From a virus, in the IMG/VR virus record IMGVR_UViG_3300044641_001504, positions 1 through 33,298 of that record: DNA of 33,298 bases; one strand, written 5' to 3'. Each line of letters opens with the position of its first letter. Positions within the stretch are counted from its first letter, which is position 1. This document shows positions 7,166 through 24,594 of the stretch, in pieces. The translations under genes and the position numbers were made by a program. The notes beneath the pieces were generated by a model. It worked only from the letters and a program-made list of their open reading frames with translations, was not told the origin of the DNA and did not search any database.

Positions 7166-7519
7166 CTATTTTCTGGGAGCCTTTTCGACTGCAAACTCAA
7201 GCCTAAGCCCGATTTGTTGCAGCACATGTTCGTGGGCCATTTTATGGACTTCTTCTACTTTGGGCGCTTGCCCGATGAACTTATCGTTGGATTTGAACCA
7301 CGCATAATACTGTCCTTGCTCTTTAATGATTTTCACGGGAATGTATGCGCGCTCGCTGCTGTCCCAATCAATGATATCGTCGGAAGACACAGATCTTATG
7401 TTTTCAGCGTCTTCTGACATATCAACCCATCCAAAGAATCTTTTCATAGCCCAACGAGCAAGAACAATACCAGCAATCCAAGAGCAGGCTGAGATTAGTA
7501 CGTATGTTAGATATTCCAT
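7166..7519 (-). CDS. Membrane-anchored hypothetical protein, 117 aa
   Basis: The N-terminal residues about 4-26 form one membrane helix (YLTYVLISACSWIAGIVLAR), followed by a soluble domain of about 85 residues with beta-rich and His-containing parts. AAGGA lies six to seven bases before the ATG. It is the last gene of the operon that holds the TET-like and glycosyltransferase genes. This may be chance, or it may place part of the pathway at the membrane. Family unknown. Confidence 0.68.
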   Translation of the reverse strand: MEYLTYVLISACSWIAGIVLARWAMKRFFGWVDMSEDAENIRSVSSDDIIDWDSSERAYIPVKIIKEQGQYYAWFKSNDKFIGQAPKVEEVHKMAHEHVLQQIGLRLEFAVEKAPRK

Positions 7520-7529
7520 GTGTTTTCCT

Positions 7530-8366
7530 TTAGGACATAAATGATTCTAGAGTATTAGTGAACTGTGAGCTCTGATAAGCTTTCTGCCACTGGATGCGGA
7601 CTTCCTTACGATTATCCATTCCCATCTTACCCCACGAGCCTTCTTTCGTTTCGATCGACACGAACTGTGGGAAATACTTTCTGAGTTCTTCTGCAGCTTG
7701 TTCTTGTAGTTCTAATGTACGGAATGTGGAATTTCCGCCGACATTGTTGTGAACATAGTTGAAGAAGAAGTTATAGAGGATAGCGTTCTTATGCCCTTTG
7801 GTGAGCATAGAAAGAGTGATCCAATAATCTTCGTACAACTTAATCTTCGGATTCGCGCGATACATCCCATCGAATCGGATATCAGCTTCTTCCATCCAGT
7901 CTGTGCGCAATCCGTATGTTGTATATGCGCGACCAACTTCCTTGAAGTCTTCGCGAACGTGATTGTTGCCACCACGAGCAGAAAATCCAACCTGCATGTA
8001 AGAGTCGAGCGTCTTGTCTAATCTATCATACATCATCATGAATAGCGATTCTGGCATATCATTGAATTGCTTCAACTCTGTATCGCGCCAACCAAACGTA
8101 GCGAGATCATCGATGAACCAGACTTTTCCCTTTCCGATAGCAGGATGCTCAATACAACGTTGACGGATATCAGCAATCCCATCAATATCCATTGGATTAC
8201 CGATGATTCGAATAGTCTCAGGAATATGCTTACGAAGCTCTTCTACACGATCCTCGCGTGTGAACATGTATACTTGATCATGAAGCGAAGCAGGAATCTG
8301 AAACACAGCTTTCTGCTTATCCTCGCGCATGAACGTTGTTATGATAATCTTAGGGGTTGAATTCAT
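7530..8366 (-). CDS. GT-A / TET-associated glycosyltransferase-like protein
   Basis: A 278-residue protein. It opens with PKIIITTFMRED, a typical first strand of a GT-A nucleotide-sugar fold. It then shows FIDDL at 84-88 (DxD-like metal site), SARGGNN at 129-135, YEDYW at 178-182 and GGNSTFRT at 210-217. I recall this set from phage proteins grouped with TET-associated glycosyltransferases (TAGT). These are proposed to put sugars on hydroxylated bases in DNA. It overlaps the HAD gene by 17 bases, and the same operon holds a TET/JBP-like dioxygenase, which fits a DNA glycosylation step. An alternative is a glycosyltransferase acting on host surface sugars. Fold call moderate, substrate inferred. 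Confidence 0.6.
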   Translation of the reverse strand: MNSTPKIIITTFMREDKQKAVFQIPASLHDQVYMFTREDRVEELRKHIPETIRIIGNPMDIDGIADIRQRCIEHPAIGKGKVWFIDDLATFGWRDTELKQFNDMPESLFMMMYDRLDKTLDSYMQVGFSARGGNNHVREDFKEVGRAYTTYGLRTDWMEEADIRFDGMYRANPKIKLYEDYWITLSMLTKGHKNAILYNFFFNYVHNNVGGNSTFRTLELQEQAAEELRKYFPQFVSIETKEGSWGKMGMDNRKEVRIQWQKAYQSSQFTNTLESFMS

Positions 8367-8742
8367 CTACAAAGGTTTCCAATGTCATTGCTTTATCATC
8401 GATATACCACACACCGTATGGCTTACCAAACACGAGCTGATCGAACGGAACGTCATTGCGATCAAGCCATTCCTCAGTGATCTTACTGAGCTTGCTGAAA
8501 GCAAACTCCACATCATTTCCGCACGTGCGCATGTGACGCGCAGTAAGGATGGTGATATACCAACCCTTATCACGCGCCTCACGAAGTTTATTGATTGTTG
8601 CTGGGATAGGTGTCGATGACGCATAACGAACCACTGAACTCTCGATATTGAGATCGTTCATGCAAAGAGTGTGGTCTAGATCAACGACTAGGCTTTGATC
8701 AAACAAGTCCGCTGTCTGAGCGCGCCTGACGATAGAGGGCAT
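8350..8742 (-). CDS. HAD-superfamily phosphatase, capsule-biosynthesis type
   Basis: A 130-residue minimal HAD enzyme with motif I DLDHTL at residues 21-26 (nucleophile D21, acid/base D23), motif II ITILTAR, and a late Lys and Asp-Asp (GKPYGVWYIDDKA). Such small HADs (about 130-150 residues, no cap) often remove phosphate from sugar phosphates in polysaccharide pathways. The ATG at 8742 with AGGAG seven bases upstream is chosen. An ATG at 8775 would lie almost on the transcription start of the promoter at 8784-8812. It lies between the nucleotidyltransferase-kinase and the glycosyltransferase, which suggests a shared pathway. Confidence 0.82.
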   Translation of the reverse strand: MPSIVRRAQTADLFDQSLVVDLDHTLCMNDLNIESSVVRYASSTPIPATINKLREARDKGWYITILTARHMRTCGNDVEFAFSKLSKITEEWLDRNDVPFDQLVFGKPYGVWYIDDKAMTLETFVDEFNP

Positions 8743-10270
8743 AATACAACTCCTGATTTGTTTCACTGTGATCATGTAATGGTATCATAGTCAAAAACAG
8801 AGACGCTGTCAAGAACAAAGTGATCCGCCAAGTCTTTTCACCATACTTATCAATGAATAGAGTCTTATATGCGTTCCTGGCTGCTTCTTTGCCAGCATCG
8901 AAGTAGATAGTCTTGCCATCTTTATTTAGATAAAGCTCCGCATCCACATAATCATATGGATAATAGGCTGAATGAGTAATCTTGGCTAAGTCGTATAGGA
9001 TATTACCATAGGCTTCACCACGAGGATCAATCAGCTTGATTTGCTTGCTGCCGGGATGATAAAAGATGTTCGAGAAGCATAGATCACCGTGAAACAAAGA
9101 ATCTTGGAAAACATCAAACTCACCGTCGGCGGTCATATTAGCAAACTTCGACAGAAATTCTGAATCAAATTCTGAATCATCTTCATACGCGAACTTATGA
9201 CTAATCGTAATGTATCTTTCGTAGTTCTTAGTCGCTACATTATGAAAGAACTGAGGCTTGCCTGGCTTGAAGTAGAACTTGAATTTATCAGTCAGTTTGA
9301 ATAACTTCGTGTAGATTTCAGCCCAGAAGATAGGATCTGATTCGAGATATAGATACAGCTCGCGAAGAGTCGGACTATCGACACGTTCCATTGTGTATGT
9401 CGGACGATCACCATACAAGTTCTTATCCAGGATGCGAGGCGTCATCACCTTAATTGAAGTCGGAAGATTATCATACCAATTAGCTTCAGCATGAATCTTG
9501 CTGGGTTGTACGATAGACGTCTTCGTGATCGTAGCACCATCGCTGGATGGAAACAATTGATTGAACGATCGAGAATTACTTACGCCACGATTCTCAAGAT
9601 ACTCTTGCAACGTACCAAAGTCAACGATCTTCACTGACTTAGAGTAGATCGATTCTTTTTTCATATAGCGAGTCATTGCAGAAGATATCTGAACTTCTCC
9701 TTCGCTTGTGCTATGAATTGCGTAAATCATACAATTACGGAATTGATAGCCATCAGCGAAATAATAAACTCCGCTAACAGCAGTATCTGTTGCTGGCATA
9801 TCTCGTGGTTTGTCGTGAAATTTAACTACAGCTCCTGCGTTGAGTTCAGCCATACACCAACGTTCCCAATCAGAAACTTTTTGTGTAGAAATCCAAGAAG
9901 TACGAGAATCTGTAAACGGCGCATGATTCACAACGATATCACTGAGAAGAATCAATACAGGTTCTTCTCCGATGTCTTCCGGAAGACCGCAATAGATGGA
10001 AACGCCAGGACCACCTTTTCCTTCAGCTTCAGTGTATTCCGCAAAGCGAACTCGCGAGTCGTCGGGAAAATACATTCCGACGATCTCGCGAATCTTATTT
10101 GCTTGATGTCCAACAACGATACATACTTCACGAGCACCGCTATCAAATGCGAGTCTAATGTTATGTACGATGATAGGAATATCCTGATACGGCAAAACGC
10201 ACTTCGGATAGTTCTTACCTAGTTCATTGAAACGAACACCACGCCCAGCGGCAGGAATCACACAATACAT
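8699..10270 (-). CDS. Nucleotidyltransferase-kinase fusion protein
   Basis: A 523-residue two-domain protein. Residues 1-230 form a sugar- or choline-phosphate nucleotidyltransferase: PAAGRGVRF at 6-14, YPKCVLP at 21-27 and LSDIVV at 109-114. Residues about 250-523 resemble the aminoglycoside/choline kinase fold, with HGDLCFSN at 394-401 and IDPRG at 414-418, the catalytic and metal-binding motifs. Such a fusion could phosphorylate a small substrate and then activate it as an NDP derivative. The ATG at 10270 is chosen because the PAAGRG fold must begin there and AAGGG precedes it; an upstream in-frame extension lies inside the TET-like gene. It follows that gene by 13 bases. Substrate unknown. 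Confidence 0.85.
   Translation of the reverse strand: MYCVIPAAGRGVRFNELGKNYPKCVLPYQDIPIIVHNIRLAFDSGAREVCIVVGHQANKIREIVGMYFPDDSRVRFAEYTEAEGKGGPGVSIYCGLPEDIGEEPVLILLSDIVVNHAPFTDSRTSWISTQKVSDWERWCMAELNAGAVVKFHDKPRDMPATDTAVSGVYYFADGYQFRNCMIYAIHSTSEGEVQISSAMTRYMKKESIYSKSVKIVDFGTLQEYLENRGVSNSRSFNQLFPSSDGATITKTSIVQPSKIHAEANWYDNLPTSIKVMTPRILDKNLYGDRPTYTMERVDSPTLRELYLYLESDPIFWAEIYTKLFKLTDKFKFYFKPGKPQFFHNVATKNYERYITISHKFAYEDDSEFDSEFLSKFANMTADGEFDVFQDSLFHGDLCFSNIFYHPGSKQIKLIDPRGEAYGNILYDLAKITHSAYYPYDYVDAELYLNKDGKTIYFDAGKEAARNAYKTLFIDKYGEKTWRITLFLTASLFLTMIPLHDHSETNQELYYALYRQARSDSGLV
8784..8812 (-). promoter_or_regulatory. Sigma-70-type internal promoter
   Basis: TTGACA (8812-8807), 17 bases, TATGAT (8789-8784) on the minus strand. 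It lies inside the 3' end of the nucleotidyltransferase-kinase gene and would give extra expression of the HAD and glycosyltransferase genes. Confidence 0.8.
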
Positions 10271-10283
10271 TATAAGCCCTTTT

Positions 10284-11669
10284 CTAATGAACTTGATCAA
10301 GTCCCAATTTATATAGGATTTGATTTGCTTGCTCAGCAAATCCATTATGTCCCAAGAAATTAGCCCACTCTTCGGTGTCCCACATGTTAGGAGAAACACC
10401 ATTCCATCCTTGATGCCATAGCTTATGTTCTTTATCATCACGACGAGAATAAACAAATCGTCTGCGCGTATCCTCATATTTTGCTGAACCGCAATTCAAC
10501 ATAGACTCTCGGAAATACATCACGACCGACATACGCTCAAAGCCTTCTTCGTGATTGAAAGCAGGAGAGTTAGAATGGATACGATGAGCGTTCATCATAA
10601 TCAAATCACCAGCGCGAATGTTAGCTGCTACACGAAACTCCGGAAAGCACAGATAGAAACCATCGTAGTCCTTACCATTATCTAAGACTAGAAGATTACT
10701 GAATCCTTTCGGATTTTCATGCGACTCCCACGACTCACACAGATCACCGACGTCACGATGCGCTGCTGTACGGAAATCGCGATTGATGGTTAGAGTAGTG
10801 TAAACAGTATCGCCTATGCGCCAATCTTCACCGAGTTGTTCCATAGCAGCTGCTTGTCCAGCCCAACGCACAGGCACTTCGCGCTTGAACACTTCGTTTG
10901 CTGCGTGAAACAGAGGGAGAGAAGTCTTATACAAATCTTTATGATTTGCGCTCCAACCTGTTTCACGGCAGAATGGAATGCGTGGATATCTATCCATGAA
11001 TCCACCGACTCCCGAACGAACACCATTAGCATATGTCGAGGAAGAAATTAATTCATCAAGAATAAACTGAGATCTTTCTACTCGTTCAGTAGCGGATAGA
11101 TCTTTGATACTATGAAACCATTCGTCAAAATTAAATTCCGTGGTCTTATGAACAATCCAGATAGCTCCAGATCCAATCTCTGCGAGATTCTTATTAGCAC
11201 CAGAGCCTCTTCCCTGCAAAGGCTTATTCGGAGTGTTCTCGTATATTTCTAGCAGACGATCATTACCATTAACAGTAGGTGGACTACCAGCCATAATATA
11301 TTGAAGAACAGCCTTTTCTCGCTGTGTGACCCAACGACGCTGTCCTTGACCATCTGGAAGTTTTTGGAATTCAGTATCCCTCTCGATACCAGCAGCCAAA
11401 CCACGATTGTCTGACATCATTGCGCCAGAACGAAGAGCGGTGTATGCGCTATCTGTCATTTCCTTAGAGAAAACATTCTTACGAAACTTGCATAGCAAAT
11501 TCTTTTCGCTGTGTGTTTCGCCCATCATGATTTGAAGTGGCGTCAGTGGCTCATACACATCAGTGTCTTCATTCAAGACAAGATCGTAACAATCGTGATC
11601 CAAAAACTTACCAAGAACATGATCCATCTGATCGCGGAAAGACTTTTCGAGATAGATTACTTTTACCAT
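10284..11669 (-). CDS. TET/JBP-family Fe(II)/2OG dioxygenase
   Basis: A 461-residue protein whose residues about 285-390 match the TET/JBP dioxygenase core. They show TLTINRDFRTAAHRDVGDL with iron ligands H304 and D306, then FYLCFPEFRVAANIRAGDLIMM, distal His 365 (or 362) in AHRIHSN, and R379 for 2-oxoglutarate. Family members oxidise 5-methylpyrimidines in DNA, and phage members act on 5-methylcytosine as the first step of hypermodification. The N-terminal 250 residues are unassigned, with MMSDNRGLAAG near 84-94. AAGGAG precedes the ATG, and a promoter lies about 70 bases upstream. The next three genes (transferase-kinase, phosphatase, glycosyltransferase) suggest that the hydroxyl group is further decorated. 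No DNA methyltransferase is in the window. Confidence 0.85.
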   Translation of the reverse strand: MVKVIYLEKSFRDQMDHVLGKFLDHDCYDLVLNEDTDVYEPLTPLQIMMGETHSEKNLLCKFRKNVFSKEMTDSAYTALRSGAMMSDNRGLAAGIERDTEFQKLPDGQGQRRWVTQREKAVLQYIMAGSPPTVNGNDRLLEIYENTPNKPLQGRGSGANKNLAEIGSGAIWIVHKTTEFNFDEWFHSIKDLSATERVERSQFILDELISSSTYANGVRSGVGGFMDRYPRIPFCRETGWSANHKDLYKTSLPLFHAANEVFKREVPVRWAGQAAAMEQLGEDWRIGDTVYTTLTINRDFRTAAHRDVGDLCESWESHENPKGFSNLLVLDNGKDYDGFYLCFPEFRVAANIRAGDLIMMNAHRIHSNSPAFNHEEGFERMSVVMYFRESMLNCGSAKYEDTRRRFVYSRRDDKEHKLWHQGWNGVSPNMWDTEEWANFLGHNGFAEQANQILYKLGLDQVH

Positions 11670-11692
11670 AAATGCTCCTTAAAATCCTATCT

Positions 11693-12271
11693 CTATGTAT
11701 GCTTCAGAAGATTTTCATATGTATTATAATACACATTTATAGCACAAATTTTGCTAATTGTCAAGTCACTTGGAAAAAGAAAGATGAAGTCTACATCGGG
11801 ATTTTTATTCACGAGCCATGTCAAATAATTCAGGCGACCAGGATTATCTGCTGCGTTCGCTCGCGTGCTAGGACCATAATTATCGGAGCCATCATAGATG
11901 TTCGAAAGGAGCTGATTGTCATCTTCAATAAGAAAATCAAATCCCAAACAAATTAACTGATCATGACCAGCCTTGATGGATTCGATCATAGCATTCATTC
12001 CTGCGTTGCTACGAGGCCTCCCGATATTGCATTCGGAAGGCTCCCATCGCTCATTGATAGGCGGAATAACAACTTTCGATGACGGAAAATCGCTACGCTC
12101 TATCTCTTGAATAATGCCGTCATCAATAGCAACAAGCACATCAGGAATAGAATGATCTGGAAAATCACGATACAAAGCGTTACAGCCATATATCGTCCCA
12201 TATTGTTTGAGTCTAGATAAATCTATTCCCTCGCGAGAAGTGCCATTACCAATGATGAAAGCAGTATTCAT
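11693..12271 (-). CDS. MptE-like / DUF115-type Rossmann protein
   Basis: A 192-residue protein opening with AFIIGNGTSREGIDLSRL and containing GCNALYRDF, PDVLVAIDDG, SNAGMNAMIESIK and LICLGFDFL. This is a phage family with a Rossmann-like fold related to MptE (6-hydroxymethylpterin diphosphokinase) and some sialyltransferases. The activity of phage members is not known. It might bind nucleotide sugars, consistent with the glycosyltransferases around it. The start overlaps the upstream gene's stop by four bases. Confidence 0.75.
   Translation of the reverse strand: MNTAFIIGNGTSREGIDLSRLKQYGTIYGCNALYRDFPDHSIPDVLVAIDDGIIQEIERSDFPSSKVVIPPINERWEPSECNIGRPRSNAGMNAMIESIKAGHDQLICLGFDFLIEDDNQLLSNIYDGSDNYGPSTRANAADNPGRLNYLTWLVNKNPDVDFIFLFPSDLTISKICAINVYYNTYENLLKHT
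11736..11764 (-). promoter_or_regulatory. Sigma-70-type promoter of the TET-like operon
   Basis: TTGACA (11764-11759), 17 bases, TATAAA (11741-11736) on the minus strand. It lies in the 3' end of the MptE-like gene. It would start the unit TET-like gene, transferase-kinase, HAD, glycosyltransferase and membrane protein. Confidence 0.82.
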
Positions 12272-13588: not shown

Positions 13589-14449
13589 TTAGAACTCCGA
13601 TATGGCTTCAGTCAGATTACGAAGTCGATGCTTTACGAAATAATTGAATATCTTATTTCTAGGCTGACGTTCATAGCTATCATATGTTTCTATGATCTGA
13701 TTCTGTAAAGTATCAGGAATGCAATCTAGATCAACTAGCATCTTATTGCGATAATAGTTGCGCAACATTTCTCCTGTACAATATGCTTCAGGTTCCATCA
13801 GAGTCCATTCTTCTAGCTTCTTTTTAGACAAAGGCTTTTGTCTAGCGCCCGAAACAAACGTATCGTCTGCTGATAGGAAGTTCGGTACACCATCACCACT
13901 ATCTCCCTGCAAGATGTGATACTGTTTGAATCGCTCTGGATTTACGTCAGGCGTGACATACTTCTTACCTACGGGTGAATACTGAACAACGTTCGAGAAC
14001 TTCTGCAGTTGTGCGAAATCTTTGTCGCCAGACACAACGAGGATCTTTTCGTTTCCACCTAGAAACACTCCGCGAGCATTACAGATAGCTCCGATGATAT
14101 CATCTGCTTCTGCGCCTTCGAAACGAAGAACTGGATATGGCATATTTTCTTGAATTTCGTCGCGGATCTTATGGAGCGATTCGAAGATCAGTGACCAGTT
14201 GTGCTCAGACTTATCACGAGACTTTTTACGATTAGCCTTATAGTGCGGGAAAGTTGTGCGCCTCCAATATGAAGGTCCGTCACAACAGATCACAAGCTCG
14301 CCATAGGTACTACCAAACTTCTGCTTGTACATACGCAAGCTCGACAGAACCATATGGCGAACCATATCCTCATCGAGCTTGCTTTCATTATTAGCCAACT
14401 GCATCATGATGTTTGATATCATCACCTGGCTGAAATCAACGAGAATCAT
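13589..14449 (-). CDS. rnh: T4-type RNase H (FEN-1 family 5' nuclease)
   Basis: A 286-residue protein, close to the T4 enzyme's 305. The metal-binding acids are visible: D5 (ILVDFS), D57 (CCDGP), E111, E114, D116 and D117 (FEGAEADD), D142 and D144 (SGDKDF), followed by QGDSGDGVPN, the helix-hairpin-helix entry. In T4 this nuclease removes RNA primers from Okazaki fragments. It has GGAG six bases upstream of the ATG and its own promoter at 14472-14500. It heads the unit leading to mazG and the DUF6433-like gene. Confidence 0.92.
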   Translation of the reverse strand: MILVDFSQVMISNIMMQLANNESKLDEDMVRHMVLSSLRMYKQKFGSTYGELVICCDGPSYWRRTTFPHYKANRKKSRDKSEHNWSLIFESLHKIRDEIQENMPYPVLRFEGAEADDIIGAICNARGVFLGGNEKILVVSGDKDFAQLQKFSNVVQYSPVGKKYVTPDVNPERFKQYHILQGDSGDGVPNFLSADDTFVSGARQKPLSKKKLEEWTLMEPEAYCTGEMLRNYYRNKMLVDLDCIPDTLQNQIIETYDSYERQPRNKIFNYFVKHRLRNLTEAISEF

Positions 14450-14504: not shown

Positions 14505-14885
14505 TTAATTGTCGTTGTTACCATCTTCATCATCATTGCAGCCAATAAAGTCGGTGTATACCGTTGGAGGCTTAACATTCACAGCAGCTTTTACGACTTC
14601 CTGTAATGGATGAGACACGCCCATAGTATTAAGCAGCGTAGAACGTAGAGCTTCAACTGTAAAGCCAAAATGCTTATCAAAATCCTCATTGAATATATCA
14701 AAGCCTTGTTGGGCTAACATATTCACCATATCGATGGCGTAGGTTTCAATAACTTCGTCGATGTATTTACGACGATTCAATTCTTTAGCAGCTTCATCAT
14801 CAACGGACAGAATAGTCCTCACGCGAGGACCGGGAAAAATCAAGACGTTATTATTTGATTGCTCGGAGGAGAATTGTTTGTTCAT
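14505..14885 (-). CDS. Conserved phage protein, 126 aa
   Basis: A 126-residue protein starting MNKQFSSEQSNNNVLIFPGP, with a helical middle (YAIDMVNMLAQQGFDIF, then EALRSTLLNTMGVSHPLQ) and an acidic Asn/Asp tail. I recall the pattern of a family near the RNase H gene in T4-like phages. The ATG at 14885 is chosen (GGAAG about five bases upstream) over one four codons earlier. It overlaps the upstream gene by 35 bases. Function unknown. Confidence 0.72.
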   Translation of the reverse strand: MNKQFSSEQSNNNVLIFPGPRVRTILSVDDEAAKELNRRKYIDEVIETYAIDMVNMLAQQGFDIFNEDFDKHFGFTVEALRSTLLNTMGVSHPLQEVVKAAVNVKPPTVYTDFIGCNDDEDGNNDN

Positions 14886-15978
14886 TGATTCTTCCATTCG
14901 TGTTTGACGCCTTCGTTGTTAGGGATTCAAAAGCTCGTTCCGCGGCCTTCGCTGTGGACGTCGTGATAGCAGACAAACTATCCGCTGGCTTACGAAGCTT
15001 CTTCTGCTGTGATTTGTCGGAGTAACCAATAATGGTCGTTCCCTTAACAGACAACCCTTTCGCATCAGACGCAACGTAATGAGCTAGAACATTCGTCTTA
15101 GTATTTAGAGTCCAAAGAGCAGACGCGCCTACGATCTTAGACGGATCAATAGAAACAATCTTAAGATCAGTATGCTCTTTCTGGAACTTGATCTTGGACA
15201 CAACCTTATCAGCTGTCTTAGGTTTCTTCAGTCTCGTCTTGCGAACAACAACCTTGCGATTGTTAGAAACCATAGACTCACAATCAGACATCATGCTCTT
15301 AAAGAACGATATGCGATCCTTGAGCTGCTTCTTATTCATATTACGATAAGCATACTTGAGATCATCGTCTTTGGTCGTTAGGACTTCTTCTAACTCTTGC
15401 AACCAAGGCTGATAGTATTCGGATATGGCTTTAGCTTGAGCAGGTTTGACTTCTTTTTCTTTCAGCCACGCATAGAAGTTCTCGATATTGATAGTACCCT
15501 TATCGAGAGCTTCTTCAACGACACAGATCATGTCGTTTGACGTATTCCGCGCAACAGAAATGGCGTTGGGTTTCTTTTCTAGCTTCATGAGCGCTGCGCT
15601 CTTACGACACATAGTCAAGATGCGCTCTTCGAGCTTATTCTTACGATCGTCGTCAGCAAGACCCATAAGATACATGCGAGCCATAGAAGTCACGGAGCTT
15701 GATACATGCACGTCAGGCAAACGATTGAACATAGCCACAGAAGCCTTAGACATATTAGATTCTTCCATGAATTCTAAGATGTACTTGCGACCTTCTTTTG
15801 GCTCATAGAAATAGTTGTACCAGTTATAGGCCTGCATCTCGCGCGAGCGAATCTCGGAATCGTTCAGAAAAGCGATGTCGTCCCACACGGGCTCTCCGCC
15901 CATATGATTCGAATCTAGTCCTCTCGGCAGAATAGCTTTACGTTTCTTGATCTTGACTGTAAGCAAACTCTTAGCCAT
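14851..15978 (-). CDS. Large conserved T4-type phage protein, 375 aa
   Basis: A 375-residue basic, mostly helical protein (MAKSLLTVKIKKRKAILPRG...). The C-terminal part has DPSKIVGASALWTLNTKTN, then KGLSVKGTTIIGYS and KKLRKP. These strings resemble a long conserved hypothetical of T4-like phages. The C-terminal beta region and the basic linker could bind nucleic acid. AGGAG lies six bases before the ATG and a promoter at 16002-16030. No catalytic motif recognised. Confidence 0.75.
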   Translation of the reverse strand: MAKSLLTVKIKKRKAILPRGLDSNHMGGEPVWDDIAFLNDSEIRSREMQAYNWYNYFYEPKEGRKYILEFMEESNMSKASVAMFNRLPDVHVSSSVTSMARMYLMGLADDDRKNKLEERILTMCRKSAALMKLEKKPNAISVARNTSNDMICVVEEALDKGTINIENFYAWLKEKEVKPAQAKAISEYYQPWLQELEEVLTTKDDDLKYAYRNMNKKQLKDRISFFKSMMSDCESMVSNNRKVVVRKTRLKKPKTADKVVSKIKFQKEHTDLKIVSIDPSKIVGASALWTLNTKTNVLAHYVASDAKGLSVKGTTIIGYSDKSQQKKLRKPADSLSAITTSTAKAAERAFESLTTKASNTNGRINEQTILLRAIK

Positions 15979-16001
15979 GTGAATCTCCTATCACTATTAC
16001 A

Positions 16002-16030
16002 AGTATATCATACGACTAGGTGGTTGTCAA
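16002..16030 (-). promoter_or_regulatory. Sigma-70-type promoter
   Basis: TTGACA (16030-16025), 17 bases, TATACT (16007-16002) on the minus strand. It drives the 375-residue protein gene at 15978. The -35 box overlaps the end of the glycosyltransferase gene. Confidence 0.82.
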
Positions 16031-17013
16031 GAGTTATTAGTCATTGAGCTTAGGAAATCTTGCCATTGAGAAGCCCGCAAATCCCAGTTGTAATACTTAT
16101 CAAAGTAAAGCTTCTGGAGCTTGAGTGTATTCTGATTATGATCTTGCCAAAATCCCTGGATAAGCATATTGAGGATTCCTGCGAACTGATTGGCATGTCG
16201 CCCATTATCTTCATCGAAATTATACATTACGCCAAAATTGGCACATGTTTCGGGAAGAGCTTGGAAATTAGGGCATATCACGCTGCATCCGGCGCTCATA
16301 GCCTCGATCACCGAGATCGCGCTAGTCTCTGGCCAGATGTTCGGATACGCATAGATGTGCGCTTTCTTGAGAGCTTCGCGCACGACTTCGTTTGGCTGAT
16401 ATCCGTGATATGTGATGTTAGGACTTCTATTGCATCGATCGAAGAGAGCTTTGTATGGCTCATCGCGTTGCTGCCATCCATAGATCTTGAACGAAGAAAA
16501 TACATCAAGATGAAAATCTACACCGCGCTCGGCTAGAAATTCTGCAACAGGAACGAGAAGCTCTAATCCTCGATGAGGCGTCGTATGATAAATAAGTCGA
16601 ATTGTTCCTTTAGGCTTTTCGTGCTTCTCAATAGGAACAACAGCATTCTGTAGGACTATCCCCTTGGAATAGGGTACATTCAGTCCCATGTTATATGTTG
16701 TTTGCTGATGATTAGAAACGAACACGAGCTTCTCGAATCGTGCGAGACTCTTAGGATCTTTCAGATGCTGCGACTCTGGATCATCCCATGTGTCATGAAG
16801 CCATAAGATGTTTTTCTTATTGGGATCGATCGCGCGCACGCGAGAACAGATAATGTTGAACTGATCAGTAAGATCTTTCGGAAGCCTCTGCATCAATCCT
16901 TGATACATTTGCTCAGTTCCACCCTTCGAACCAATATGCTCGAAGGTCCCATTATCAGACGGATCAATTTGCGTAGAAGATTCTTTTAGACCAGTGATAT
17001 TCAGTTTAGTCAT
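16027..17013 (-). CDS. GT4-type glycosyltransferase (GT-B fold)
   Basis: A 328-residue protein with a GT-B layout. The N-terminal half includes NILWLHDTWDDP and LVFVSNHQQTTYN. The C-terminal half has IRLIYHTTPHRGLELL, then NITYHGYQPNEVV, and the GT4 signature PETSAISVIEAMSAGCSVICP. This Glu-rich signature binds the nucleotide diphosphate of the sugar donor. The enzyme would transfer a sugar from an NDP- or UDP-sugar with retention. Start ATG 17013 has GGAG seven bases upstream and overlaps the previous stop. Whether its acceptor is DNA, lipopolysaccharide or a protein cannot be read from sequence. Confidence 0.88.
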   Translation of the reverse strand: MTKLNITGLKESSTQIDPSDNGTFEHIGSKGGTEQMYQGLMQRLPKDLTDQFNIICSRVRAIDPNKKNILWLHDTWDDPESQHLKDPKSLARFEKLVFVSNHQQTTYNMGLNVPYSKGIVLQNAVVPIEKHEKPKGTIRLIYHTTPHRGLELLVPVAEFLAERGVDFHLDVFSSFKIYGWQQRDEPYKALFDRCNRSPNITYHGYQPNEVVREALKKAHIYAYPNIWPETSAISVIEAMSAGCSVICPNFQALPETCANFGVMYNFDEDNGRHANQFAGILNMLIQGFWQDHNQNTLKLQKLYFDKYYNWDLRASQWQDFLSSMTNNS

Positions 17014-17260
17014 TCACTCGCTCCATATGCGATACACTGTCAATACGGAAAGAACGCCAGCCGGCAGAAACAATATCAAAGACAGCCAAAACATTAGGAT
17101 TATCCTTCGTTGTAGTTTCAGAATCGTTCATCATAGGAGGGAGATACTTCTCTTGCAAGGAGCATCGCATAAGGCGTTGCGTACCATCCTTCTTAAGAAA
17201 CGACACTTCGATTACACCATTCTTTGCAGCTTCGCGAAGTTCTTCTTTAGTATATAGCAT
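17006..17260 (-). CDS. DUF2693-like small phage protein
   Basis: An 84-residue protein, YTKEELREAAKNGVIEVSFLKKDGTQ, with RLMRCSLQEKYLPP and WRSFRIDSV. The pattern (a short helix, then beta strands with GxxEVxFxKxDGxxRxMxC) fits DUF2693, a small SH3-like family common in T4-type phages. AAGGA precedes the ATG. Its role is unknown. It overlaps the glycosyltransferase start. Confidence 0.8.
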   Translation of the reverse strand: MLYTKEELREAAKNGVIEVSFLKKDGTQRLMRCSLQEKYLPPMMNDSETTTKDNPNVLAVFDIVSAGWRSFRIDSVSHMERVND

Positions 17261-17652
17261 TACAATTTCCTTCCTAGATGTTTGGCATCAGTGCCGTCAG
17301 TGATATATTGATATGCGCCCTTTGAATACGCCGGCGCGGTGCGTGCAGCCTTATCTTGCATAGCCTGCACAGTAGCAGCAGACTCAGCTGAGTCACGTTT
17401 CCATTTATGATCATTGAGCTTATCGCGCTTTGCAGCTATTCCGCCAGGAATAGTGTTAGTCATGGGCGCAGCATTAGATTCTACTGCAAGACTGTATGAG
17501 AACTTCTTATTGGATTGAGTAGGCTTGACGTAGCCAACTTTCTTGAGTAGCTCTTGAGTCATACGCCTAGACTCAATCATAGCCTGTGTTGGCTTGCTAG
17601 TCTTACGCTTACGTGTATTCGTAGTGGTAAAGTAGATTGGAAGTATCGGCAT
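17260..17652 (-). CDS. Conserved basic phage protein, 130 aa
   Basis: A 130-residue, strongly basic protein with many Lys, Arg and Thr (NTRKRKTSKPTQ; IAAKRDKLNDHKWKRDS) and likely disorder in the first half. It is the first gene after the promoter at 17677-17705, with AGGGG before the ATG. Similar basic proteins sit near the DUF2693 gene in other T4-like phages as far as I recall. Possible nucleic-acid binding is inferred only from charge. Confidence 0.7.
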   Translation of the reverse strand: MPILPIYFTTTNTRKRKTSKPTQAMIESRRMTQELLKKVGYVKPTQSNKKFSYSLAVESNAAPMTNTIPGGIAAKRDKLNDHKWKRDSAESAATVQAMQDKAARTAPAYSKGAYQYITDGTDAKHLGRKL

Positions 17653-17676
17653 AACTGACCCCTCATCACATTATTC

Positions 17677-17705
17677 ATTATATGCTAGAATAAGTCGATT
17701 GTCAA
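17677..17705 (-). promoter_or_regulatory. Sigma-70-type promoter
   Basis: TTGACA (17705-17700), 17 bases, TATAAT (17682-17677) on the minus strand, both perfect. It begins the unit 17652 to 16027. Confidence 0.9.
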
Positions 17706-17716
17706 GACCTATTTAT

Positions 17717-18391
17717 CTACTCTAGCTCATAGTCACGAATAAGCCCAGCTTGAGAAGATGGTAGCCCTTTAAATGGTAAATTCATATCCCAATATTCTGG
17801 CTGTATTTTGTGTTTGCGTAGATTGCTTTGGAGTAAATGCTCACCTAGCATCCAACGCTTTTCGCTGAAATAATACTCGTCGATGTGTATGTATGTAGAA
17901 GAATATTTATCCATCATATCAGAACTGGAAAATGCAAACTGATCGCATGCTACATTGTCACTCCTCTGAGGAACGTATAATTTGTTATTGTCTAATCTAT
18001 TGAACGGAATAACAACATTAAGAGCATAATCAAATCTGCCTCTAATCGTCCAGTCGTATCTAAAATCAAAGTCTCGTTCATAGGCACATTTCAACATATT
18101 GGATTCATATATCGAATAAAATCCAGACAAAGTATTGCGAGGTGGCCACAACTTATGTTCTATCGGATCAAAATATTTACCATAGATTTTATCATCTTCT
18201 ACAGTAAACTTAGGATCTTCAAATTTATGTGCTATTGGTTTATATAGATCAACTATCTTCTTGTTGTGTTTGCTATTCCACGAATGCAAAAACACGTCCA
18301 CTTGATAGTAGTCAAATAAGTTCATCTCATAGAACTTATATGCTGCTTCAAATGAACGTGCTTGCCCAGACAAACATAACGCTATCTTCAT
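17717..18391 (-). CDS. KIALCLSGQ-type protein, copy 2 of a tandem pair
   Basis: A 224-residue protein opening with MKIALCLSGQARSFEAAYKF and holding DVFLHSWNSKHNK, GFYSIYESNMLKCAYERDFDFRYDW and IRGRFDYALN. It is a paralogue of the gene just upstream (the same motifs in the same order). The family occurs in phages and large viruses and probably has a Rossmann or GT-A type fold acting on sugars; the RGRFDYALN segment would fit a donor-binding site. ATG 18391 overlaps the upstream stop (ATGA). Activity not established. Confidence 0.72.
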   Translation of the reverse strand: MKIALCLSGQARSFEAAYKFYEMNLFDYYQVDVFLHSWNSKHNKKIVDLYKPIAHKFEDPKFTVEDDKIYGKYFDPIEHKLWPPRNTLSGFYSIYESNMLKCAYERDFDFRYDWTIRGRFDYALNVVIPFNRLDNNKLYVPQRSDNVACDQFAFSSSDMMDKYSSTYIHIDEYYFSEKRWMLGEHLLQSNLRKHKIQPEYWDMNLPFKGLPSSQAGLIRDYELE

Positions 18392-19182
18392 TTTTTTTCT
18401 TTTGTGGTCCAAAATTCTAAATCATGATTTAGCCAATATGTTCTAGTGCTCCAATCATGTCGTATGAGACTATAGACCCATCTTCTTCCATCAGATTCCG
18501 GATAGCCGATAAACGGATCTTGCATATCAACGTATCGTACCTTTTCATTTTCTCGTTCAGGATATCCGTGATGATTTCTGAGACCAGTCTCGATTAGGGT
18601 GGTAGAAACTAAATGTTCTCCGTAAAATTTGTATCCGGGTATCTTAGAATATTTTTCTATGTGTTCATAAACAGACATATACTTGTTCATGTTTTCACTA
18701 GACCCAAAGGCAAATAGATCACAAAAACCGTAATCGTAAGTATTATCTTCTTTTATATATTTTCTTTTTGGTAAGTATACGAATGTGTTGTCTAGATTAT
18801 TAAAATCAAAGTGTGTGTTTAAGGCATAATCAAATCTACCCCTAATCACCCAGTCATATCTAAAATCAAAATCTCGTTCGTAAACATTTTTTAAATTTCT
18901 TGATTGTAGTATGGAATAAAATTGAGCTAAAGAATATCTAGGTAAACTAGTTACATGATTGCAGTTCTTTTGATATATCTTATCATGCTCAGGAGAAAAT
19001 TTGTAATCTTCAAATGTTCGCATAACAGGATCATACAACCCCTTTATATCATTGTTGAGATGAGAATTCCAAGAATGAACGAATACATCAACTTCATAAT
19101 GATCTAGAAGATTCTTCTTCCAATAAGAATATCCTTCTTCAAGTTCGCGAGGTTGCCCAGACAAACATAACGCTATCTTCAT
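18388..19182 (-). CDS. KIALCLSGQ-type protein, copy 1 of a tandem pair
   Basis: A 264-residue paralogue of 17717-18391: MKIALCLSGQPRELEEGYSY, DVFVHSWNSHLNN, VYERDFDFRYDWVIRGRFDY. Its C-terminus is about 40 residues longer than that of copy 2. The conserved GEHL and YERDFDFRYDW suggest a common catalytic core. The start overlaps the stop of the QueC-like gene (ATGA), so the three genes are likely translated together. It is probably a glycan-related enzyme, inferred from fold resemblance and from the many glycosyltransferases nearby. Confidence 0.72.
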   Translation of the reverse strand: MKIALCLSGQPRELEEGYSYWKKNLLDHYEVDVFVHSWNSHLNNDIKGLYDPVMRTFEDYKFSPEHDKIYQKNCNHVTSLPRYSLAQFYSILQSRNLKNVYERDFDFRYDWVIRGRFDYALNTHFDFNNLDNTFVYLPKRKYIKEDNTYDYGFCDLFAFGSSENMNKYMSVYEHIEKYSKIPGYKFYGEHLVSTTLIETGLRNHHGYPERENEKVRYVDMQDPFIGYPESDGRRWVYSLIRHDWSTRTYWLNHDLEFWTTKEKK

Positions 19183-20066
19183 TTTATTTTTGCATTCTGG
19201 GTAAATTCAATTGCTTTTTCTTTAGTGTCTATTATTCCTAATTCCTCGCTGAACGAACATGCATCATGACATTGCATTTCTATAGGTAACCAGACGCGTA
19301 TTTGAGCAGTTATCCCGTCCCCTCCGCCATACTCTAGAGCTTTACTGTGTCGATATTCTTCAATCTGTTCTGAAGAATAATCGGAATAAAGCATAAGATT
19401 GCGCACCATCCTATCCCACAAACACTTATAGCATTTCTCGCAACCCTCATAGTTTTTTGTAGGCGTTGCACAAGATAAAGCCATTCGTGCATATTGCTCG
19501 GGTAGATATTTAAATACATGCCATCGAGTGAAATTCTGATGATATTCGTGAGTCAATAATGGTGTGAACAATGTTATGTTCGGAGCGCGATCAGCGATCC
19601 ATTTCTTAAGATAATTAACCTTTTCTATACCTTGTTCAGCCGAAGAATCGTTCCCTTTTTTATTATAAAACTTTTTCTGCAGTTGCTCCCATGTTATTCC
19701 GGAAACAATCATATCAAAATTGTCTTTATTAGCTACAGCATACCATGCAATATAATTCCACGGTCCAAGATGGCGCATCGATCCTTTTTTATAATTTGAA
19801 AGGATATCATCTTTGAATTCGGAAGGAGTGACTGAATGTTTATAATAAGCAAAATCCCTAATCTTCCGCAGTTCTTCAACAATTAGATCTACATTAGATA
19901 TGCTGTTTTTGGGTAAAGCGAAAGCAGCTTTTATGTCCAATCTGCTATTTAGATCTTCACTTCTTACTAGAATCGTTGCTGTTACTTCGTGATCAGTTTC
20001 AGTTAGTAATTTGTATAGGATATATGTAGAATCATATCCACCAGTAAAAAATAAACAAACTCTCAT
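19179..20066 (-). CDS. QueC-like PP-loop ATPase
   Basis: A 295-residue protein with the PP-loop FTGGYDST at residues 7-14 (a relaxed SGGxDS). A four-cysteine zinc site follows, C199-x9-C209-x2-C212-x2-C215, in the same order as QueC. QueC converts 7-carboxy-7-deazaguanine to preQ0, which some phages put into DNA. The protein is longer than typical QueC (about 230 residues), with a long insertion between motif and cysteines. Another PP-loop activity, for example amide transfer in sugar synthesis, is therefore possible. It sits between a 2OG oxygenase and the paralogous pair. No QueD, QueE, FolE or DpdA is visible in the window. Confidence 0.7.
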   Translation of the reverse strand: MRVCLFFTGGYDSTYILYKLLTETDHEVTATILVRSEDLNSRLDIKAAFALPKNSISNVDLIVEELRKIRDFAYYKHSVTPSEFKDDILSNYKKGSMRHLGPWNYIAWYAVANKDNFDMIVSGITWEQLQKKFYNKKGNDSSAEQGIEKVNYLKKWIADRAPNITLFTPLLTHEYHQNFTRWHVFKYLPEQYARMALSCATPTKNYEGCEKCYKCLWDRMVRNLMLYSDYSSEQIEEYRHSKALEYGGGDGITAQIRVWLPIEMQCHDACSFSEELGIIDTKEKAIEFTQNAKIK

Positions 20067-20067
20067 C

Positions 20068-20661
20068 TTAACTCATTTCTACCCAACCGGTCATGATATA
20101 CTTAGTGTTGCTGATCGGAGGATTGCCGCGATGGGTGTGAGTGTATCCGGCTGGCCACAAGATCAATCGTCCCTCTTTAGACTTAACGCGACGAGAATAG
20201 TATAGGAATTCAGATTCTCCGCCTTCATCAACATCGTTGAGATAGAGAATAAATGTCATCATTCTACGCATGTTAGTCGGACTATCATCTTCGCAATGCC
20301 ATTGATGATATCCACCACCAATCTCAGTTTTTTGCAGTTTAAGCAAACGAATTGTATGATGACTTAGCGTGGTTAGGATACTGAACTTATCAGAGTAGAT
20401 TGGGTATATTATATCCCAGAATTTTCTATTGAATTCATAACAAGGCTCCATGTCAGAAACGTCCATCTCGGTGCGCGAAAGTATCGATGACCAATACAAC
20501 TGATCATCAGATTTTTCGTGCTTCTTGTTTCCTTGTGCTTGCCTATTAACAGTAAATCCATTTTTCTCAAATCTATTAAAGCAATCAATAGTCCTGCGAC
20601 ATTCTTCTGAAGAAAAGAAATTGTCATAGGTCATTACGAAATCGTCTATTGTATAACTCAT
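20068..20661 (-). CDS. 2OG-Fe(II) oxygenase, prolyl-hydroxylase type
   Basis: A 197-residue protein with the double-stranded beta-helix core of prolyl 4-hydroxylases. The iron-binding segment reads WHCED, that is H122-x-E124 rather than the usual HxD. The strand pair MTFILYLNDVDEGGESEF is intact. The distal His is 175 or 177 in THTHRG, and K187 can bind 2-oxoglutarate. Such short oxygenases abound in T4-like phages; the substrates are unknown. It starts inside the overlap with the DUF458-type gene (ATG at the upstream stop). Confidence 0.85.
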   Translation of the reverse strand: MSYTIDDFVMTYDNFFSSEECRRTIDCFNRFEKNGFTVNRQAQGNKKHEKSDDQLYWSSILSRTEMDVSDMEPCYEFNRKFWDIIYPIYSDKFSILTTLSHHTIRLLKLQKTEIGGGYHQWHCEDDSPTNMRRMMTFILYLNDVDEGGESEFLYYSRRVKSKEGRLILWPAGYTHTHRGNPPISNTKYIMTGWVEMS

Positions 20662-21131
20662 GATGCTAATAGCTCCTTCATTCTGTCGGCTGCATAACTT
20701 GCAGCAAATGCTTTTGGTTTAATCATAGGAGTAACATTGCATGTTCCGCGAATGTAGCCAACCGCTTGCTGAACAACACAAGAACTTCCGTGAACTATAT
20801 TTGGATTGATATCTAGATGTACTTCTGCGTGACGATCGCCAATAGATTCTGCGAGATCCATATAAAGCTGTGCAGCCTTATACACTTCGTTCATTAGCCT
20901 ATATGCTGGGCGATCCTTACGCTGATCGTAATCGCGCTCTCTGGATACGGATCCAAAAACTTTGCATCCACGAGACCCGTCATAGTGTACCACGACGGCG
21001 AGAGTGTAGTCTGCATACCAAAGTTCATCTTTACCTCTATAGCGTTCAGAATCTGCACCAATGTAAACACAAGTTGTTTCAGAGCAATTCATAATAAACT
21101 CGCGCACTTCATCAAGATCCATATTGTTCAT
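20658..21131 (-). CDS. DUF458 / YkuK-type RNase H-fold protein
   Basis: A 157-residue protein with YIGADSERY (first acidic strand), YTLAVVVHYDGSRGCKVFG, EVHLDINPN and then GSSCVVQQAVGYIRG. These match the DUF458/YkuK family, which has an RNase H-like fold. The acidic residues in GADSE and HLDINP correspond to the likely metal site. It may be a nuclease acting in replication or repair, though no substrate has been shown. A second ATG (21122) is possible. Confidence 0.82.
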   Translation of the reverse strand: MNNMDLDEVREFIMNCSETTCVYIGADSERYRGKDELWYADYTLAVVVHYDGSRGCKVFGSVSRERDYDQRKDRPAYRLMNEVYKAAQLYMDLAESIGDRHAEVHLDINPNIVHGSSCVVQQAVGYIRGTCNVTPMIKPKAFAASYAADRMKELLAS

Positions 21132-21173
21132 AACTTTATTTATGGGAGATATATTTTGTGTTAAATTTTCAAA

Positions 21174-21632
21174 TCAAATGATAGTCAACAATAATGATAC
21201 TACTATAAAAACAAATAATACGAAGGCTCCTACTATTTTTCCTACAAAAGAAATAACTTCGAACAATTCTTCTTGACGTTTTTGTTCTTCTTCTTCCAAA
21301 CGACGTTGTTTTTTTCGCATTTCTATAACCATAGATCTGACTGAATCCCATCCAGCTAATCCGTGTTCTGTTATAAACTGCATTTCAATATCGTGCATCA
21401 TCTTCATAGCTTCAGCTTTTGCTGCATAAGCTTCCATTGCGACTTGCTCTAGCGTTTTACCGCTCATCAATCCAGCTTTAGGATCGGCTGCAATTTGTGT
21501 TAGTTGTCCTACCGCTTTCCAAAGGCCAGCTAAATCTTTAGCCATGCCTTGCATCTCTTTACCGACAGCAATACCAGCTTTGATGGCAGAATAACTGGTC
21601 TTAGCTAAAGCTAAGATAGTAATCGGATCCAT
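21174..21632 (-). CDS. Phage protein with C-terminal membrane anchor
   Basis: A 152-residue protein. An amphipathic N-terminal helix (MDPITILALAKTSYSAIKAG) is followed by an Ala- and Lys-rich helical middle, a charged coiled-coil zone (about 103-127, EMRKKQRRLEEEEQKRQEE) and a single hydrophobic helix at 131-151. The layout is similar to conserved T4-like phage proteins near tRNAs, and a spanin- or holin-accessory role is conceivable but unproven. AGGAG six bases upstream is partly held in the arm of a stem-loop (21641-21677). Confidence 0.72.
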   Translation of the reverse strand: MDPITILALAKTSYSAIKAGIAVGKEMQGMAKDLAGLWKAVGQLTQIAADPKAGLMSGKTLEQVAMEAYAAKAEAMKMMHDIEMQFITEHGLAGWDSVRSMVIEMRKKQRRLEEEEQKRQEELFEVISFVGKIVGAFVLFVFIVVSLLLTII

Positions 21633-21640
21633 ATATTTCT

Positions 21641-21677
21641 CCTGATTAATTAAATACTATGAAATAATTAATTCAGG
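21641..21677 (-). promoter_or_regulatory. Stem-loop over the ribosome site of 21174-21632
   Basis: On the minus strand CCTGAATTAATTA pairs with TAATTAATCAGG (one bulged base) around a loop of about 12 bases, and the 3' arm runs into the AGGAG ribosome site. No T-run follows, so it is not a simple terminator. It could hide the ribosome site and tune translation. Confidence 0.5.
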
Positions 21678-21700
21678 AAAATTCAGTCAACTCACTATCA

Positions 21701-21838
21701 TTATTTATAAGTTTTTATGAAATTCCAAATCGACAACGGTATTTTTACTAAAATAAACCATATCAACGACAAAATGTATATTGCAAATAACAAACCTATC
21801 ATAGATATGGCAAAAGTTAGCGCAATGTTTTGTATCAT
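21701..21838 (-). CDS. Small membrane protein, 45 aa
   Basis: A 45-codon frame that starts MIQNIALTFAISMIGLLFAI and ends in a basic tail (WNFIKTYK). Residues 4-33 are almost wholly hydrophobic, enough for one long or two short membrane helices. The ribosome site is weak (GGA at distance). It lies directly after the tRNA-Leu gene. Such small hydrophobic proteins could be lysis accessories, but there is no motif to say so. Confidence 0.5.
   Translation of the reverse strand: MIQNIALTFAISMIGLLFAIYILSLIWFILVKIPLSIWNFIKTYK
21702..21709 (-). promoter_or_regulatory. T4-late-type box TATAAATA
   Basis: An exact TATAAATA on the minus strand, 70 bases upstream of the gene at 21632, fits the T4 late promoter. 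It coincides with the last codons of the small membrane-protein gene 21701-21838, so chance is possible. Confidence 0.4.
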
Positions 21839-21852
21839 ATGTTTTTTCCGAT

Positions 21853-21928
21853 TGGTGCCCACGGTCGGACTCGAACCGACACTGTGGAGATTTTAAGTCT
21901 CCTGCCTCTGCCATTGGGCTACGAGGGC
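21853..21928 (-). tRNA. tRNA-Leu(UAA), short variable arm
   Basis: 76 bases with encoded CCA. Acceptor GCCCTCG pairs with CGTGGGC apart from one T-T mismatch. The anticodon loop CTTAAAA gives anticodon UAA, and the T arm is GTCGGTTCGAGTCCGAC. The variable region is only five bases, although leucine tRNAs normally have a long variable arm. Identity is assigned from the anticodon alone. Confidence 0.88.
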
Positions 21929-21931
21929 GAT

Positions 21932-22024
21932 TGGTGGAAGAGGTAGGATTCGAACCCACGGTACGCTACTAACGCACGCTTGTTTTCAAGACAAGTACAA
22001 TAAACCGGACTCTGTCACTCTTCC
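21932..22024 (-). tRNA. tRNA-Ser(UGA)
   Basis: 93 bases, class II, with encoded CCA. Acceptor GGAAGAG pairs with CTCTTCC. The anticodon stem ACTTGT/ACAAGC encloses loop CTTGAAA (anticodon UGA). A long variable arm (GCGTTAGTAGCG region) is present, as serine tRNAs require. The T loop TTCGAAT is canonical. Confidence 0.95.
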
Positions 22025-22029
22025 TAATA

Positions 22030-22190
22030 ATTGCCGATGTTGGTGTTCAGCCAACTTCCCTGCTGCTCGGCCACAGCGCCCTCGGTCCATGCGAGGCTGC
22101 ATTGGTTAGATGCAACCCGGAGGCGTGGGTAACTCGGAGCATATGAGTAACCATTCTCACACGCCTGATCCAACTGTTAGTCCCACGGCG
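22030..22190 (-). ncRNA. Unassigned structured segment in the tRNA cluster
   Basis: No convincing gene here. On the minus strand there is a nested arm (GGCGTG/CACGCC, 22165-22122, enclosing an 8-bp near-perfect stem with loop ATATGCTCC). A perfect 8-bp hairpin follows with loop CTAACCA (22117-22095), then a 5-bp hairpin with anticodon-like loop CTGAACA (22055-22039). The last resembles a tRNA anticodon arm (GAA), but no T arm or acceptor follows before tRNA-Ser. It could be a stable small RNA, like the small RNAs in the T4 tRNA cluster, or a decayed tRNA. Confidence 0.4.
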
Positions 22191-22195
22191 CACTC

Positions 22196-22315
22196 TTAAT
22201 TATCTTCAGACCTATTGTATTGTTTGCGCCACAACCACGAACTAAAGTCAAGCGTAGCACCTTCTAACCAACTGATCAACCAACTGTTCCATAACCAATG
22301 ATCATATCTGTTCAT
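22196..22315 (-). CDS. Small Trp-rich protein, 39 aa
   Basis: A 39-codon gene MNRYDHWLWNSWLISWLEGA followed by SSWLWRKQYNRSEDN. AGGA lies eight bases before the ATG. Six tryptophans and an amphipathic pattern suggest membrane association. The SSWLWRKQY end recalls a small protein in T4-like marine phages. It sits between the structured segment and tRNA-Trp. Confidence 0.62.
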   Translation of the reverse strand: MNRYDHWLWNSWLISWLEGATLDFSSWLWRKQYNRSEDN

Positions 22316-22334
22316 AGTGATAATCCTTTAAAAA

Positions 22335-22408
22335 TGGCACCAGATGAGAGAGTCGAACTCTCGCCTGCGGTTTTGGAGACCGCCGTGCTACCGTAACACT
22401 TATCTGAT
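22335..22408 (-). tRNA. tRNA-Trp(CCA)
   Basis: 74 bases. Acceptor ATCAGAT pairs with ATCTGGT (one T-G pair), discriminator G as is usual for Trp, encoded CCA end. The anticodon stem GCGGT/ACCGC encloses CTCCAAA (anticodon CCA). The T loop is TTCGACT. A phage tRNA-Trp is not common. Confidence 0.9.
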
Positions 22409-22413
22409 AATCT

Positions 22414-22896: not shown

Positions 22897-22954
22897 TTAA
22901 TTTCTCCATGTTTATCAGTTTATGTAAGCATGAAGAAAAGATCAATTCAGTCGC

Positions 22955-24267: not shown

Positions 24268-24288
24268 ATACATTTCCTAATCTGCTGG

Positions 24289-24393
24289 TTACTGCCATCC
24301 AGCGTCACCTTTTCGCGTGACAGATTCTTGGGAGAAGACGGATGAATCAAGACGAACTCCAGTCGTCGCCTGACTATATCCAGCAATAAACAT
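24289..24393 (-). CDS. Doubtful small ORF, 34 aa
   Basis: A 34-codon frame (MFIAGYSQATTGVRLDSSVF to QESVTRKGDAGWQ) in the otherwise geneless stretch before the oxygenase. The ribosome site is poor. The composition looks protein-like, but a second frame is also open here. It may be a fragment of a once longer gene. Confidence 0.3.
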   Translation of the reverse strand: MFIAGYSQATTGVRLDSSVFSQESVTRKGDAGWQ

Positions 24394-24416
24394 TCATCCA
24401 ATTCACTGCTAGTGTT

Positions 24417-24563: not shown

Positions 24564-24594
24564 CACGTTTTGGTGCTTTTCTTACCACAAACTT

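Follow-up and report, generated by a model that had tools for sequence, protein, structure and literature searches.

Gene clusters for DNA hypermodification built around TET oxygenases were reportedly described in phages by Iyer in 2013 and Burke in 2021, and phage TETs are usually described as acting on 5-methylcytosine (5mC) made by a partner methyltransferase. In the synthesis of base J in kinetoplastids, the oxygenases JBP1/JBP2 act on thymine and a glucosyltransferase follows. Phages T2 and T6 make the hydroxyl group in the nucleotide pool with a dCMP hydroxymethylase, and the donor is UDP-glucose of the host. Here, we analyzed IMG/VR virus record IMGVR_UViG_3300044641_001504 (33,298 bases, hereafter the window), a genome fragment of a T4-like environmental phage, in which four genes encode a TET/JBP-type 2-oxoglutarate (2OG)-Fe(II) dioxygenase, a fusion of a nucleotidyltransferase with a small-molecule kinase, a small HAD phosphatase, and a TAGT glycosyltransferase. 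Protein families, motifs, and the recurrence of the set in other gene orders support what an earlier, sequence-only reading of this DNA had proposed, i.e., a hypermodification cassette, and indicate that it very probably oxidizes a base in phage DNA, makes an activated sugar, and attaches this sugar.

The phage TET clusters described before (PMC12730594) likewise combine a TET/JBP enzyme with glycosyltransferases in a predicted post-replication modification, whereas the cassette studied here comes without a canonical C5-methyltransferase, has its own sugar-activation pair, and lies in T4-like genomes. The likeness to base J synthesis is in the proposed order, thymine oxygenation and then glycosylation, but here the system is phage-borne, the glycosyltransferase is of the TAGT type, the donor would be made by phage enzymes, and the thymine target is only proposed. 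With T2 and T6, the locus shares the glycosyltransferase family (beta-glucosyl-HMC-alpha-glucosyltransferase, where HMC is hydroxymethylcytosine; PF20691; PMC13216743). That this exact gene set had not been described may hold for the set itself, but TET/JBP-centered hypermodification clusters and TAGT, for which PF20691 is named, were already known. New are the gene set, the sugar module of cellular type, the swapping of modules, and the absent source of methylcytosine.

All four genes were intact and on the minus strand, in agreement with the sequence-only reading, and they nearly abut or overlap. The 461-amino-acid (aa) oxygenase (10284-11669) passed the Pfam cut-off for Tet_JBP (E 3.8e-14; 52.7 bits against 34.9) and matched phrog_24024 (2.7e-106), placing it inside the TET/JBP group. 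The HxD pair (His304 and Asp306) and His365, which are the iron ligands, and the 2OG-binding Arg379 had been named before as its hallmarks, and all were invariant in 28 aligned relatives. The catalytic domain comprises approximately residues 234-388, the N-terminal region is conserved, and a profile of the family reached human TET2 in PDB (E 5.6e-5) with the catalytic residues aligned. Several TETs of this type are deposited as "SNF2 DNA repair protein". The TAGT assignment was likewise upheld, with a PF20691 score above the cut-off (32.5 against 27.5 bits), a match to phrog_842 (3e-42), and an Asp86-Asp87 pair that was invariant in the alignment (7530-8366, 278 aa).

Between these two genes lies the putative sugar module. 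The fusion protein (8699-10270, 523 aa) comprises a nucleotidyltransferase (about residues 1-230) and an APH-type kinase (about 230-515). Its N-terminal half passed the Pfam cut-off for NTP_transferase (6e-10, residues 6-228) and matched RmlA/GalU folds, while the C-terminal match to the APH kinase family (1e-3, residues 259-434) was below the cut-off but consistent with it. The motif AAGRGVRF..K and the kinase motifs HGDLCFSN and IDPRG were kept. In the structure model the kinase half was poor (mean predicted local distance difference test score, pLDDT, 56.7), and only the transferase half was used. The open reading frame (ORF) as listed (592 aa) extends back into the TET gene, and 10270 is the most likely start. 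The HAD protein (8350-8742, about 130 aa) probably starts at 8742 by alignment, with an ORF that could start at 8775. Its DxDxT, TAR, K, and DD motifs were invariant, and it is related to PDB entries 1xpj and 9iqw. Against the EcbF/BcbF-like model TIGR01689 it reached 1.2e-16 and 60.8 bits, below the curated cut-off of 162, and by this measure it is related to the EcbF/BcbF capsule phosphatases but outside the TIGR01689 subfamily.

The same fusion architecture with an adjacent HAD is known from cellular capsule and lipopolysaccharide clusters (the EcbF/BcbF-like pair). Among 73 cellular loci with the fusion, the HAD gene was directly beside it in 55, with glycosyltransferases around, and a separate second nucleotidyltransferase accompanied it in 64. 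The cellular pair is thus usually joined by a second nucleotidyltransferase, whereas the phage copy is linked to TET and TAGT. Judging from this gene content, the fusion-HAD pair of the phage was acquired from surface-polysaccharide clusters of bacteria or archaea, and a phage can apparently bring its own sugar-donor synthesis, drawn from cellular capsule pathways. Literature on the product of the HAD and fusion enzymes was searched for, and nothing was found. The pair also occurs in Enterococcus phage 9183 (L185, 6893-14269), where it adjoins a homologue of thymidylate synthase that is of the base-modifying type (Asp at position 177) and is near thymidylate kinase, dUTPase, and glycosyltransferase-like genes. 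The residue at this type of position decides dCMP use (PMC8670742). The gene context in 9183 is a second, independent phage setting that points to base modification, and the DNA of this phage likely contains a glycosylated pyrimidine.

IMG/VR was scanned with five TETs, which gave 80 loci. Nine further contigs (L006-L010, L020, L021, L030, and G026) had the complete TET-fusion-HAD-TAGT set arranged as in the window, and contigs L005, L012, and L016 end inside the fusion gene. The four genes are under purifying selection, with ratios of nonsynonymous to synonymous substitution rates (dN/dS) of 0.03-0.17 where computable. The order was TAGT-HAD-fusion-TET in Stenotrophomonas phage DLP6 and TAGT-fusion-HAD-TET in contig L044, while Synechococcus phage S-CBWM1 had TET-TAGT-HAD-nucleotidyltransferase-kinase, with the fusion split into two genes; the four functions are thus found together in two cultured phages, DLP6 and S-CBWM1. 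In a search of 50,697 phage records at E 1e-5, relatives of the fusion were detected in only 8 and relatives of the TET in 13, yet in DLP6 both were side by side. Since the same functions recur in other gene orders, the link of TET with fusion, HAD, and TAGT is not due to chance.

In close relatives of the window, the TET and the 192-aa gene in front of it were constant while the genes in the middle varied. Behind the TET stood either the fusion, HAD, and TAGT genes as in the window, or a sugar epimerase with a second type of TAGT (L013 and L022; a further TAGT-like protein in L011 and L031), or a protein without family assignment followed by an amino-acid:DNA transferase (ADDT) and a P-loop kinase (L017-L019 and L032). 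All replacement cassettes belong to classes that one would expect to act on hydroxylated bases and decorate them, and it appears that the decorating genes are swapped together while the oxygenase stays the same. ADDT and P-loop kinases are classes that fit the chemistry of hypermodified 5-hydroxymethyluracil (5hmU). A DNA kinase acting on 5-hydroxymethyldeoxyuridine has been described (PMC7653180).

For the cassette in the window, we propose that the TET/JBP enzyme would act on replicated phage DNA and hydroxylate a pyrimidine at its 5-methyl group, the likeliest substrate being thymine, converted to 5hmU as in base J. HAD and fusion would process a small sugar or polyol and link it to a nucleotide, which would give an activated donor, as suggested by their families and cellular relatives, and TAGT would move the activated group onto the new hydroxyl. 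Taken as a whole (TET acting on thymine, a donor made by the phage, and transfer by TAGT to replicated DNA), this scheme has, in our estimate, about an even chance of being correct. Thymine is placed first because an enzyme for making 5mC is generally missing from phages that have this oxygenase, and since DLP6 and S-CBWM1 carry all four functions without any PF00145 protein (the family of C5-methyltransferases), the common substrate would most simply be thymine. If so, phages would have their own equivalent of base J.

The absences behind this argument are firm only for complete genomes and for what the PF00145 and PF00303 profiles detect, most contigs being fragments. The sequence-only reading had remarked that the methyltransferase is not in the window, and no PF00145 protein was found in this 33-kb fragment, nor in six complete genomes with this TET type (DLP6, Cr30, C48C1, S-CBWM1, P12024L, and HTVC112P) or in two contigs of 154 kb and 173 kb. 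Hydroxymethylase-type PF00303 proteins were absent from the genomes tested (P12024L and HTVC112P were left out), the only PF00303 member being an ordinary thymidylate synthase with Asn in Cr30. A ThyA-type hydroxymethylase was not found in G004 either, a genome-scale relative of the window; the window encodes a ThyX-type thymidylate synthase (972-1649).

G004 (139 kb) and G026 (158 kb), both relatives with the full cassette, had one PF00145 protein each. It was 49% identical to SpCmoX of phage S-B43 (PDB 8yf3, 3e-104) and kept SPPC as well as an Arg at the position of SpCmoX R350, where it replaces the Asn of methyltransferases. A CmoA homologue followed (E 9e-22 to Escherichia coli CmoA); CmoX and CmoA were thus found in these two relatives and not in the window fragment. 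By these residues and neighbors, the PF00145 enzymes of G004 and G026 are CmoX-type carboxymethyltransferases. SpCmoX uses carboxy-S-adenosylmethionine (carboxy-SAM) to make 5-carboxymethylcytosine (5cxmC), and the wild-type enzyme does not accept SAM (PMC12783734). Across the ten genome-scale records that have this type of TET, the searches revealed no recognizable 5mC maker.

These results bear directly on the first step that the sequence-only reading had assumed, i.e., oxidation of 5mC. On this route, 5mC would be converted to 5-hydroxymethylcytosine and then glycosylated, and the methyl group would come from a host methyltransferase or from one outside PF00145. In its favor, a C5-methyltransferase, TET, and glycosyltransferases are coupled in the published phage TET model (PMC12730594, citing Burke 2021), and at 66 of 74 loci with TETs of the type found in Methylophilales phage Melnitz, the gene immediately ahead of the TET does encode a PF00145 protein. 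For the TET type of the window, however, the assumption fared badly: a canonical C5-methyltransferase was found in 0 of the 10 genome-scale records, eight having no PF00145 protein at all and the other two having as their sole type the protein with the CmoX Arg, whose wild-type counterpart SpCmoX takes only carboxy-SAM (PMC12783734). We therefore consider a 5mC substrate unlikely. At the Melnitz-type loci (L186:4010-6194 and L191-L261), the PF00145 protein precedes a short TET; the Melnitz methyltransferase was also considered as a CmoX and ruled out by a Leu at the position of SpCmoX Arg350 and M.HhaI Asn304.

It could also be hypothesized that, in the lineage of the window, the TET acts on 5cxmC: CmoA would provide carboxy-SAM, CmoX would carboxymethylate cytosine, TET would hydroxylate the CH2 group, and TAGT would glycosylate the resulting hydroxyl. 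ALKBH8, which hydroxylates 5-methoxycarbonylmethyluridine in tRNA, offers an analogy for such a hydroxylation. In favor of this, both genome-scale relatives with the cassette encode a CmoX that has the diagnostic Arg and lies next to CmoA, neither genome contains another PF00145 protein, and 5cxmC is a proven handle for hypermodification in phage S-B43 (PMC12783734). Furthermore, a CmoA homologue lies downstream of TET, ADDT, and an inositol-phosphate synthase in L027-L029. However, the cassette is not dependent on CmoX, since no PF00145 protein accompanies the four functions in DLP6 and S-CBWM1; S-B43 and S-CRM01 have CmoX without TET; the CmoY ligase, which is proven to use 5cxmC, is encoded by G026 (not by G004); and in both contigs CmoX is tens of kilobases away from the TET. 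We regard a 5cxmC substrate as improbable, somewhat more so than 5mC, and its full form, in which the TET hydroxylates the CH2 of CmoX-made 5cxmC and a phage-made sugar is added there to give a base with both a carboxylate and a sugar, as marginally less probable again. If true, the base would be new, TETs would have a previously unknown substrate, and 5cxmC would serve as a handle in a second way.

The CmoA-CmoX-CmoY pathway of S-B43 (PMC12783734) is related to the present system through the CmoX and CmoA orthologues in the two genome-scale relatives of the window, but S-B43 is without TET, and that paper mentions no TET, glycosyltransferases, or nucleotidyltransferases. The CmoX and CmoA genes (L085, L089, L095; G004:17410-18453 and G026:51010-52053) follow gp46 and a peptide deformylase, and CmoX was 88-94% conserved, against about 70% for its neighbors. 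The CmoY ligase was found in G026 and G023 but not in G004.

That the sugar genes might instead serve another purpose, such as glycosylation of a virion protein or the host surface, and stand beside the TET by chance is very doubtful. In its favor, pairs of fusion and HAD are typically found in clusters for cell-surface polysaccharides, and the window has a second set of sugar genes at about 16-29 kb. However, distant phages combine the TET with the other three genes in four different arrangements, a linkage by chance being unlikely to outlast such reshuffling, and the TAGT relatives of T2/T6 glycosylate DNA (PMC13216743).

Several points weigh against glycosylation of oxidized thymine as the function of the cassette. 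All of its enzymatic steps are inferred, the group to be attached being predicted no more closely than as a sugar or polyol of small size. The host could have a methyltransferase that provides 5mC, the target in the lineage of the window may be cytosine given the CmoX encoded there, and the TAGT of T2/T6 acts on a cytosine base (PMC13216743). A rule separating cytosine from thymine oxygenases was sought eight residues past the 2OG-binding Arg, and it was not decisive. This position holds Arg in the family of the window TET, including P12024L and HTVC112P, Asp in the methyltransferase-linked TETs of the Melnitz type, and Leu in those of the Cooper type, and no simple rule of base choice can be derived from it. 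We take this position to be that of TET2 His1904.

The Cooper-type TETs of actinophages (e.g., gp2 of mycobacteriophage Prince) are likewise phage TETs without a C5-methyltransferase, and PF00145 was absent from the sampled phages that carry them. Their neighbors, however, are annotated as DNA glycosylase and adenylate kinase, not TAGT, and their similarity to the window TET is about 25%; the product name "thymidine hydroxylase" given to gp2 is an annotation and not functional evidence. The T4-like branch studied here is widespread and has a TET without a partner methyltransferase, making the question of its substrate directly testable.

The genes flanking the cassette are partly conserved with it. 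The range 7166-11764 originally given for the four genes did contain them, but it also takes in a fifth, encoding a 117-aa protein with a hydrophobic N-terminus (7166-7519, minus strand), for which family profile searches (Pfam and PHROG) gave no match. In close relatives this gene usually keeps its place behind whichever cassette is present, and its dN/dS was 0.13-0.22. Directly before the TET, and kept there in close relatives, is a gene for a 192-aa Rossmann-like protein (11693-12271, minus strand) with a weak match to the GT42 sialyltransferase motif (E 0.015). Its AlphaFold model was good (pLDDT 85) but had no significant match in PDB, while DUF115 and MptE-like proteins were among its matches in a viral fold library (4e-4). 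It is a possible partner of the TET. Further upstream are RNase H (13589-14449), a DUF6433 protein, and a MazG-like protein.

The sequence-only reading had placed the cassette behind one sigma-70 promoter. A consensus-like site (TTGACA-17-TATAAA, 11736-11764, minus strand) is indeed present upstream of the TET, at the end of the 192-aa gene. Since a second such site (TTGACA-17-TATGAT, 8784-8812, minus strand) lies directly before the HAD gene, a single promoter is not established; both sites are defined by consensus only, and promoter-like sites were not in excess in the region (18 found, 19.1 expected).

Other loci with this TET showed different neighbors. In L027-L029, the genes behind the TET encode an FkbM methyltransferase, ADDT, a homologue of inositol-1-phosphate synthase, a small protein, and the CmoA homologue, which makes this a further modification cluster of unusual composition. 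In Caulobacter phage Cr30 (L002, 18001-24474) it was near ADDT, a TAGT-like protein, and inositol-1-phosphate synthase. In phage C48C1 (L003, 17923-21370), the TET preceded a UDP-galactopyranose mutase, and galactofuranose on the DNA of this phage is possible.

The second sugar-related set of the window (14851-29587) includes a group 1 glycosyltransferase (16027-17013), a GDP-mannose dehydratase-like epimerase (26038-27006), and a hexapeptide protein (28398-28931). A DegT/DnrJ-type aminotransferase of 202 aa (26999-27607) has about half the usual length and matched in two separate stretches. Two small 2OG-Fe(II) oxygenases are also encoded (20068-20661 and 23683-24273), the second being weakly Tet_JBP-like, below the cut-off.

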